64,000 nucleotides of DNA from Kutzneria chonburiensis (lineage in GTDB: Bacteria > Actinomycetota > Actinomycetes > Mycobacteriales > Pseudonocardiaceae): positions 186,001 through 250,000 of the forward strand of contig NZ_CP097263.1 of NCBI RefSeq assembly GCF_028622115.1. Direction: 5' to 3'. The number at the start of each line of letters is the position of its first letter. Within the stretch, counting starts at the first letter, position 1. Of this stretch, positions 38,739 to 41,128 are shown piece by piece. The notes beneath the pieces were generated by a model. It saw only the letters and a list, made by a program, of their open reading frames with translations, made no database searches and was not told the origin of the DNA. The position numbers and the translations under genes were made by a program.

Positions 38739-40199
38739 TCAGTAGCGGTAGTGCTCCGGCTTGTACGGGCCGGTCACGTCGACGCCGATGTACTCGGCCT
38801 GCACCTTGGACAGCTCGGTCAGCCGCACGCCCAGCGCGTCCAGGTGCAGCCGGGCCACCTTCTCGTCAAGGTGCTTGGGCAGCCGGTAGACCTGGCGCTC
38901 GTAGTCGCCGGGCTTGGTGAACAGCTCGATCTGCGCGATCACCTGGTTGGAGAACGAGTTCGACATGACGAAGCTGGGGTGGCCGGTGGCGTTGCCCAGG
39001 TTCATCAGCCGGCCCTCGGACAGCACGATGACCGCGTGCCCGTCCGGGAACACCCACTCGTGCACCTGCGGCTTGATCTCGACCTTGCGGATGCCGGCGA
39101 CCTTGGCCAGCCCGGCCATGTCGATCTCGTTGTCGAAGTGGCCGACGTTGCCGACGATGGCGTTGTGCTTCATCCGGGCCATGTGCTCGGTCATGATGAT
39201 GTCGCGGTTGCCGGTGGTGGTGATGAAGATGTCGCCCTTGTGCACCACGTCGTCCAGGTGCACCACCTCGAGGCCCTCCATCGAGGCCTGGAGCGCGCAG
39301 ATCGGGTCGACCTCGGTCACCACGACCCGTGCGCCCTGGCCGCGCAGCGCCTCGGCCGCGCCCTTGCCCACGTCGCCGTAGCCGCAGACCACGGCCAGCT
39401 TGCCGCCCAACATCACGTCCGTCGCCCGGTTCAGGCCGTCGGCCAGCGAGTGCCGGATGCCGTACTTGTTGTCGAACTTGGACTTCGTCACCGAGTCGTT
39501 CACGTTGATCGCCGGGAACAGCAGCTCGCCGTCCGCGGCCAGCCGGTACATCCGGTTCACGCCGGCCGTGGTCTCCTCGGTGACGCCGATCATCTGCTCG
39601 GCGACCCGGGTGAACCGCTTCGGGTCACGCGCCATGCTGGCCGCGATCGTCGCCAGCAGGATGCCGTACTCCTCAGGGTCGTTCTCGCCCGGCTGGGGGA
39701 CCGCACCCGCCTTCTCGAACTCGACTCCCTTGTGCACCAACATGGTCGCGTCGCCGCCGTCGTCGACGATCATGTTCGGCAGCTCGCCGTCGGCGAAGGT
39801 GAACAGCTGGTCCGTGCACCACCAGTACTCCGCCAGCGACTCGCCCTTCCAGGCGAACACCGGCGTGCCCTTGGGCTCGTGCACCGTCCCGTCGCGGCCC
39901 ACCACCACGGCCGCCGCCGCCTCGTCCTGCGTGGAGAAGATGTTGCACGACACCCAGCGCACCTGCGCGCCCAGGTGCACCAGCGTCTCGATCAGCACCG
40001 CCGTCTGCACCGTCATGTGCAGCGAGCCCGCGATCCTGGCCCCCGCCAACGGCTTGCTCTCGCCGAACTCCGCCCGCAGCGCCATCAGGCCCGGCATCTC
40101 CAGCTCCGCCAGCCGGATCTGGTGCCGCCCCGCCTCGGCCAGCGCCAGATCGGCCACCGCGAAGTCGATCCCGTTGACCTGCCTCAGTTTCCCGCTCAT
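38739..40199 (-). CDS. ahcY: Adenosylhomocysteinase (S-adenosyl-L-homocysteine hydrolase)
   Basis: 486 residues, the length of the mycobacterial-type enzyme with its internal insertion. NAD-binding motif [13 protein letters not shown] is near residue 270, the substrate site includes [13 protein letters not shown] (here NVNDSVTK) and the C-terminus is PYKPEHYRY, which closes over the NAD of the partner subunit. It splits SAH to adenosine and homocysteine, relieving methyltransferase inhibition. The ATG follows ggaggaaaccgga. An SAH riboswitch lies directly upstream. Confidence 0.97.
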
Positions 40200-40246
40200 T
40201 CCGGTTTCCTCCGCATGCTCAGCAGGGAGGTCGCCCCTTCACGACG

Positions 40247-40277
40247 AAGGGCGCCTCCCGCTTGGGGAGGCGCCCTT
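40247..40277 (-). terminator. Terminator-like hairpin (expression platform) of the ahcY riboswitch
   Basis: Arms 40247-40259 and 40265-40277 pair perfectly over 13 bp around a 5-base loop. On the minus strand its first arm contains GGCGCCT, the strand needed for the aptamer pseudoknot. No U-run follows, so it may stop transcription weakly or block translation instead. Confidence 0.75.
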
Positions 40278-40338
40278 GTGACGTTCACTCGGAGCCGAGC
40301 GTGGCGGACCTCCGTCCGCTGCAGCGCCTCTCGACTCC
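40268..40338 (-). ncRNA. S-adenosylhomocysteine (SAH) riboswitch aptamer
   Basis: Read on the minus strand the leader folds as the known SAH riboswitch: P1 GGAGTCGAG (40330-40338) with CTCGGCTCC (40291-40299); conserved AGGCGCTGC (40321-40329); P2 GCGGAC-GGAG-GTCCGC (40304-40319); conserved CCAC before GCTCGG; P4 GTGA-ACG-TCAC (40278-40288); pseudoknot strand GGCGCCT (40268-40274) complementary to AGGCGC. The core is close to the Ralstonia solanacearum aptamer as I recall it. It sits in front of ahcY, the standard target. Confidence 0.92.
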
Positions 40339-40379
40339 ACCGACGAAGTTAGCCACGCCGTGCCGACCCTGTCAACGAA

Positions 40380-40570: not shown

Positions 40571-41128
40571 TTACACGTGCTCCATCACCATGACGGTGAC
40601 GCTGTCGGGGAGCAGGGCCTGGTACAGGTGGGGGATGTCGCCGGGGTACGAGAGGTAGTCGCCGGGGCCGAGTTCGACGGGGTCGTCGGCGGGGCCGGCG
40701 AGGACGCGGCCGGCGGAGACGACGAGGTGCTCGACGGTGCCGGCGTTGTGGGGCAAGGAGTGGCGGCCGGCGTCGGTGCTCATGGTGGCGAGGTAGATGT
40801 CGCGGCGGGCGCCGGGGGGACAGGCGGAGAGCAGGGCGGCGGAGTAGTTGGACTCCTCGGAGTGCAGGTAGTTGCCCTCGCCGAAGCGGACGACGCGGAC
40901 GGGGGGCCGGGGCGGGTCGACGAGGCGGGAGAAGGGCACGCCGAGGGCGACGCCGAGGGCCCAGAGGGTCTCGACGGAAGGATTGCCGGCGCCGGACTCG
41001 AGCTGGGAGAGGGTGCTCTTGGCGATGCCGGCCCGCTTGGCCAGCTCGGACAGGGACAGGCCGACACGGTCGCGCTCCCGGCGTAGCGCGGCGGCGATGA
41101 CGTCCAGCGGGGCGGTGCTGCGATCCAC
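40571..41128 (-). CDS. XRE-family regulator with C-terminal cupin domain
   Basis: 185 residues, GTG start. Residues ~8-65 form a helix-turn-helix (LSLSELAKRAGIAKSTLSQLESGAGNPSVETLWALG). The cupin half has PHNAGTVEHLVVSAGRV and LGPGDYLSYPGDIPHLYQA. The group controls amino-acid or alcohol metabolism genes nearby. It is divergent from azlCD, as such XRE-cupin regulators often are, with two like inverted repeats between them. Confidence 0.92.
   Translation of the reverse strand: MDRSTAPLDVIAAALRRERDRVGLSLSELAKRAGIAKSTLSQLESGAGNPSVETLWALGVALGVPFSRLVDPPRPPVRVVRFGEGNYLHSEESNYSAALLSACPPGARRDIYLATMSTDAGRHSLPHNAGTVEHLVVSAGRVLAGPADDPVELGPGDYLSYPGDIPHLYQALLPDSVTVMVMEHV

Follow-up and report, generated by a model that had tools for sequence, protein, structure and literature searches.

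S-adenosylhomocysteine (SAH) is a toxic product left over from methylation reactions, and the enzyme encoded by ahcY removes it. The SAH riboswitch, Rfam family RF01057, was reportedly described by Wang et al. in 2008. The class and its ON logic are already known: in the sections of PMC10992897 drawn on here, the SAH-bound fold of known SAH riboswitches exposes the gene start, and elements of the class are recorded in actinobacteria. A different arrangement is presented in the part of PMC11260477 used here, where the actinobacterial metE B12 switch has an anti-TIR/anti-anti-TIR platform in which a strand that masks the ribosome site is itself removed by another strand. The same part of that paper holds that intrinsic terminators are rare in mycobacteria and that riboswitches there are mostly translational or Rho-dependent, so a translational or mixed output is plausible in the order studied here too. 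By title, a literature search returned no SAH riboswitch study in Streptomyces, actinobacteria, Mycobacterium (metH) or Pseudonocardiaceae, and searches with Amycolatopsis and with Kutzneria found no SAH riboswitch paper; no priority is claimed.

The locus analyzed here lies in a 64,000-nucleotide stretch (the window) of the Kutzneria chonburiensis genome (10.4 Mb, single contig). Coordinates are window positions, and all features described are on the minus strand. Like the RF01057 class, the locus combines P1, P2, the optional P4, conserved cores and a pseudoknot, and the genes served in this genome, ahcY here and metH at a second copy, are also those of the class. The ahcY leader is very probably an SAH-sensing ON switch acting through one shared strand, here called a, and some or all of its control may be exerted at translation.

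The aptamer and its relatives

The downstream gene (38739-40199, 486 aa) is securely identified as ahcY, encoding adenosylhomocysteinase, from its match to TIGR00936 (609.7 bits; cut-off 497.6); PF05221 matches with 469.4 bits. The upstream neighbour on the same strand (40571-41128) encodes a helix-turn-helix protein (PF01381). An earlier note on this DNA had read an SAH aptamer upstream of ahcY from the letters alone, and its elements were all located by direct reading within an actinobacterial variant of the aptamer at 40264-40342: P1 (40338-40331 with 40298-40291), P2 (40319-40314 with 40309-40304), P4 (40288-40285 with 40281-40278), the cores, and the pseudoknot between AGGCGC (40329-40324) and GCGCCU (40273-40268).

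The covariance search with RF01057 that the note had proposed gave a divided answer. A default Rfam scan of the window at the gathering score was empty because the match (35.0 bits) stays below that score, the curator's detection threshold of 37 bits. By E-value the match at 40261-40338 is significant (4.1e-5 in a 301-nt stretch, 3.3e-4 in the whole-genome search), and it covers all 78 model positions. The absence of an RF01057 match, which the note had named as a refutation, is thus seen at the gathering score but not by E-value. P1, P2 with the conserved internal loop, and the pseudoknot are present, the core departing from the Rfam consensus by two substitutions, and the element lies upstream of SAM-cycle genes, ahcY here and metH at a second copy. 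Given its score, the element is therefore filed as a variant homologue under the Rfam cut-off. Rfam matches to NLPC-P60, VA and serC in the leader stretch fell far under their own cut-offs and were taken as chance.

A family model was built from an alignment of 49 diverse relatives that contains no Kutzneria sequence (A1). It scored the window copy at 76.2 bits (E 4.5e-15), with the next best site in the window at 17.5 bits. Run on the whole genome with E up to 5, it gave two matches, of which the second reached 81.6 bits and lies upstream of metH, a gene assigned from a partial match to TIGR02082 (688.6 bits on the first 495 aa) under the whole-protein cut-off. All 30 columns that are invariant among the 49 relatives are conserved in the window copy. 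Across P1, P2 and the pseudoknot, 94.5% of the cells in A1 are paired and double changes occur at 11 pairs against 6.0 in shuffles, with 0 of 500 shuffles as high. In the pseudoknot 99.7% of cells are paired, with double changes at two of the six pairs and four pairs invariant; its covariation, considered alone, is thin. By these sequence comparisons, the leader element is homologous to the SAH riboswitch, and the family together with the downstream gene points to SAH as the ligand.

The pseudoknot departs from the RF01057 consensus, in which GAGCGC presumably pairs with GCGCUC. The pair AGGCGC:GCGCCU found here amounts to two double compensations, which RF01057 does not score because its printed model structure has no pseudoknot. 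Through these base changes the pseudoknot strand carries the anti-Shine-Dalgarno CCUCC. CCAC/AAGG also stands in place of the consensus CCAG/AACG.

A promoter-like TTGACA-18 nt-TAACTT lies at 40346-40375, a call that rests on motif statistics in related leaders; a generic scan listed no promoter there (the second hexamer matches at only 3 of 6 positions). Among 208 related leaders, 126 carry TAnnnT at -32 to -8 relative to the core, usually 15-20 nt upstream of it, compared with a mean of 23.7 in shuffles (maximum 33) and 3 in a control stretch. TTGACA is present in four of the six Kutzneria ahcY leaders. From the position of the two hexamers and the usual placement of TAnnnT before the core, the RNA probably starts near 40340, almost at P1.

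Searched at E up to 1, RF01057 matched in 65 of 100 relatives (16 over the cut-off) and in 4 of 14 controls. At 0.01 it matched in 274 of 390 family genomes (135 over the cut-off) and in 0 of 14 controls; one of the seven genus genomes, G004, had no match at this threshold. At phylum level, with a threshold of 0.005, 9 of 396 genomes matched. In searches without control genomes, the family model matched at 0.001 in 123 of 397 order genomes and 74 of 394 class genomes, counts that come from different samples and thresholds than those of RF01057.

A strand shared by pseudoknot and hairpin

The 5' strand of the pseudoknot, P (40324-40329), faces a partner that lies inside strand a (AAGGGCGCCUCCC, 40265-40277). 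Strand a is at the same time the 5' arm of a hairpin whose 3' arm, strand b (GGGAGGCGCCCUU, 40247-40259), contains a Shine-Dalgarno-like GGGAGG. The hairpin has 13 perfect pairs (40277-40265 with 40259-40247), a loop of 5 and an energy of -28.1 kcal/mol. The double use of GGCGCCT as pseudoknot strand and hairpin arm, which the earlier note had pointed out, holds: GGCGCCU at 40274-40268 is common to both structures. A further strand, c (AAGGGGCGACCUCCC, 40225-40239), resembles a and is complementary to b; its CCUCC (within CCUCCC, 40230-40225) is also complementary to the ahcY ribosome site, a Shine-Dalgarno GGAGG at 40212-40208 that 8 nt separate from the ATG at 40199. A leader stretch of 151 nt folds at -80.8 kcal/mol (z -3.6), and 0 of 200 shuffles were equally stable.

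This layout suggests how the switch would work. Without SAH, a (40277-40265) and b (40259-40247) would form the 13-bp hairpin and ahcY would be off. With SAH bound, the aptamer would close the pseudoknot, P (40329-40324) would take a, and the hairpin would be blocked; ahcY would then be made and SAH removed. In Kutzneria, the freed strand b could pair with c (40239-40225) and keep it off the ahcY ribosome site. Control may therefore lie partly or entirely at translation, with or without transcription attenuation. That SAH turns the gene on, and at which level (transcription or translation) it does so, we infer; an ON response to SAH would fit the known class as set out in the cited sections of PMC10992897.

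The pairing of P with a was surveyed at 209 distinct loci (236 rows before duplicate removal; four late loci without the motif were excluded). The combination AGGCGC/GCGCCU occurs at 175 of them. At 14 loci it is replaced by AGGCGU/ACGCCU (11 in family f8 and three in genus g33, the latter in the window's own family); in all 14, P and a are altered jointly at the innermost pair, and the hairpin pairs CUUCC with GGAAG, not CUCC with GGAG. Eight loci have AAGCGC/GCGCUU (seven in genus g8, one in g46), and in all eight the hairpin partner of the altered base is A, not G, so all three strands have changed together. GGGCGC is paired with GCGCCC at two loci and with GCGCCU, through a G.U pair, at five. 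Another five loci, with UGGCGC/GCGCCU, have an outermost U.U mismatch, which counts against pairing. The three-way changes of aptamer strand, shared strand and hairpin arm fall in two genera and, at some of the related loci, support the earlier claim that the two folds would exclude each other.

Family f8 is likely Mycobacteriaceae. Its loci (L032, L033, L079, L316-L323) carry a divergent aptamer with AGGCGU:ACGCCU and a short linker, and most of the matches score 39-53 bits. In the three loci read, this aptamer precedes metH and CUUCC pairs with a GGAAGG ribosome site.

Platforms at metH and ahcY

The 209 loci precede metH (106), ahcY (86), MOSC-domain genes (9), methyltransferase genes (2), metK (1) and unidentified genes (5). 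The 16 loci whose downstream gene either has no place in the core SAM cycle or is unidentified count against the reading as an SAH switch. The sample is not random, being composed of best-scoring matches, places chosen for spread and pattern matches that required a longer hairpin.

The platforms of the two main genes differ. In 104 of the 106 metH leaders the start codon lies 4-14 nt past a Shine-Dalgarno sequence in the 3' arm of the hairpin, and a U-rich tail (5 or more U of 8 around the stem end) is found in 0 of 106, against 45 of the 86 ahcY leaders (33 of 68 once 18 pattern-derived leaders are removed). The ahcY leaders divide into 33 with the tail only, 12 that combine the tail with an in-range start codon (a chance occurrence, perhaps, for some of these codons), eight with the start codon only and 33 with neither; the automatic call of the stem end overlooks at least one true U-tract (L064). 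From these counts, the same aptamer strand would act in freeing the ribosome site at metH and as a terminator-like arm at many ahcY genes.

All nine MOSC leaders, both methyltransferase leaders and the metK leader are of the translational kind. In the MOSC group, loci L029, L030, L039, L042, L119 and L272 have the ribosome site inside the hairpin; the gene was assigned by PF03473 in L042 and by similarity to L042 in the other five. At L027 the aptamer precedes a class I methyltransferase gene (PF08241). An SAH-type riboswitch at L020:1504-1582 stands before metK (TIGR01034, 544.7 bits), again with the ribosome site inside the hairpin, in contrast to Proteobacteria, where metK is reported, in the part of PMC4239095 cited here, not to be under SAH riboswitch control.

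The window hairpin had also been called a terminator, and in the canonical sense this label found no support. The GC-rich stem is there (13 pairs, -28.1 kcal/mol), but the tail that follows it, UUCGUCGU, has 4 U of 8 where an intrinsic terminator has at least 5 in the 8 nt after the stem, and a terminator scan of the window leader found 0 terminator-like sites. All six Kutzneria ahcY leaders have tails of this kind, with 3-4 U of 8. Transcription termination by this hairpin in Kutzneria is thus doubtful on these features. The ahcY leaders of Amycolatopsis thailandensis (L189) and Saccharopolyspora endophytica (L236) resemble that of the window in that the a:b hairpin shares the pseudoknot strand, and they differ from Kutzneria in having terminator-like hairpins with 5-7 U of 8 after the stem.

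One rival account of the output is transcription attenuation only, with a:b as a working terminator that has a poor U-tract and c without a role, and this is a real possibility, if short of probable. The strength of the hairpin speaks for it, as do the U-rich tails of 45 of the 86 ahcY leaders (0 of 106 at metH) and the likeness of the window tail to that of L002 (UUUUUCGUCGU), from which it differs by a shortened U-run. The low U count in all six Kutzneria leaders and the empty terminator scan weigh against it, and it leaves the match between b and c in all six without an explanation.

The b:c duplex and the ahcY ribosome site

Computation showed aptamer homology, a shared strand with co-varying partners, and complementarity between b and c. 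In the window the b:c duplex reaches -23.5 kcal/mol against a shuffle mean of -12.8, and 0 of 200 shuffles were as good. Across the six Kutzneria leaders the duplex energy lies between -20.8 and -24.3 kcal/mol, where shuffles give about -13.5. In no leader did more than 4 of 200 shuffles do as well, and a second run of 300 shuffles put the share at 0.7% or less. When CCUCC was held fixed, 3, 13, 11, 8, 33 and 11 of 500 shuffles were as good in the six leaders, the window accounting for the 3. With the pseudoknot strands blocked and the coding sequence absent, the minimum-energy folds pair b with c in 6 of 6. The duplex was rejected as a general feature of ahcY leaders: among the 59 non-Kutzneria leaders compared, only six stand out at 0.02 and 14 at 0.05 (12 short-spacer leaders, four without b and five of the 86 without a usable start codon were omitted, and ahcY is about 900 nt distant in two of the 59, L175 and L240).

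Masking of the ribosome site by c, which the earlier note had raised for CCTCC and GGAGG, stands in part. The gain in ribosome-site access from the OFF to the ON fold beats shuffles in four of the six leaders (as large in 0, 0, 6 and 5 of 200 shuffles for L005, L012, L069 and L070), L004 is borderline (12 of 200) and the window's own leader is not significant (72 of 200). As a stand-alone signal masking was rejected, since the energy of the duplex between c and the Shine-Dalgarno sequence beats shuffles in 0 of 6 leaders at 0.05. Whole-leader folds without coding sequence show access rising from the free to the bound state in all six, from 0.09 to 0.63 in the window. With 18-30 nt of coding sequence the gain in the window falls to 0.50 -> 0.60-0.62, and in L069 it is gone with 24-40 nt (0.60 versus 0.55-0.62).

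The energies were compared in two ways. Summed as helices, the OFF state amounts to -37.1 kcal/mol (a:b -28.1, c with the Shine-Dalgarno sequence -9.0) and the ON state to -35.8 to -38.7 kcal/mol (P:a -10.0 to -12.9, b:c -25.8); these are added parts and no whole fold, and they exclude the pseudoknot penalty and the ligand. In this model the sums show that b:c would repay the cost of opening the 13-bp hairpin. Against an SAH ON switch, the whole ON fold with the pseudoknot strands blocked has -63.7 kcal/mol, 17 kcal/mol worse than the -80.8 of the free fold, a value that gives no credit for the pseudoknot or the ligand.

It is possible that control is translational: P:a would free b, b would capture c and the ribosome site would open, and without SAH the a:b hairpin would leave c at liberty to lie over that site; the hairpin need not terminate. 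This is favoured by a b:c duplex that beats at least 98% of shuffles in all six Kutzneria leaders, and that also stands out in six of the 59 others, by its persistence with CCUCC fixed (equalled by 3 to 33 of 500 shuffles) and by the rise in access without coding sequence. It is weakened by the failure of c to stand out in its pairing with the Shine-Dalgarno sequence alone, by the loss of access gain once coding sequence is included, by the 72 of 200 shuffles that equal the window's gain, and by the origin of the six leaders in one genus, which means few independent events. A fuller version of this account is likewise possible but less likely than not, the masking of the ribosome site by c being only partly supported. 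It describes a relay of four strands, in which the pseudoknot would take a from b, b would take c off the ribosome site and ahcY would open, with the very stable 13-bp OFF hairpin made reversible by the b:c helix, which would return almost the whole of its energy. The relay would derive from a direct switch that persists at metH in the same genome, where the arm equivalent to b is the ribosome site. It resembles the metE B12 switch, in the part of PMC11260477 cited, in having a mask on the ribosome site and another strand that removes it; it differs in that b, the strand that unmasks, is in turn bound by the pseudoknot strand a, so the four strands would hand over in series.

An improbable route runs through a leader peptide or Rho, with the GGGAGG of b serving a short upstream frame (GUG at 40242 to UGA at 40219) and either coupling to ahcY or excluding Rho. 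Start codons soon after b and far before ahcY in L022, L054 and L135 are in its favour, and interplay of riboswitches with upstream frames and Rho-dependence are known for mycobacterial B12 riboswitches, according to the part of PMC11260477 cited; against it, the window places its GUG 11 nt from GGAGG, and the Kutzneria leader L012 lacks a start codon at this place. A conserved reading frame after the hairpin was rejected for this reason, as it is not kept within Kutzneria. In the ahcY leaders L022, L053, L054 and L135, a start codon follows a ribosome-site-like hairpin arm far upstream of ahcY, an arrangement that suggests a leader peptide or coupling in those leaders.

It is very unlikely that the aptamer is degenerate, with SAH sensing lost and the hairpin constitutive, as its RF01057 score under the cut-off might suggest, since the window keeps all 30 columns that do not vary among the 49 relatives and the promoter motif and the gene are retained.

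For an SAH-sensing ON switch at ahcY, what is added to the known class is an actinobacterial variant in which the pseudoknot strand takes part in ligand sensing and doubles as an anti-Shine-Dalgarno or terminator arm, and of which many natural copies lie under the current Rfam cut-off. One genome offers a natural experiment, with one aptamer joined to a translational platform at metH and to a longer hairpin at ahcY. If the relay is true, it would show a way for a pseudoknot of little strength to govern a hairpin of great stability.
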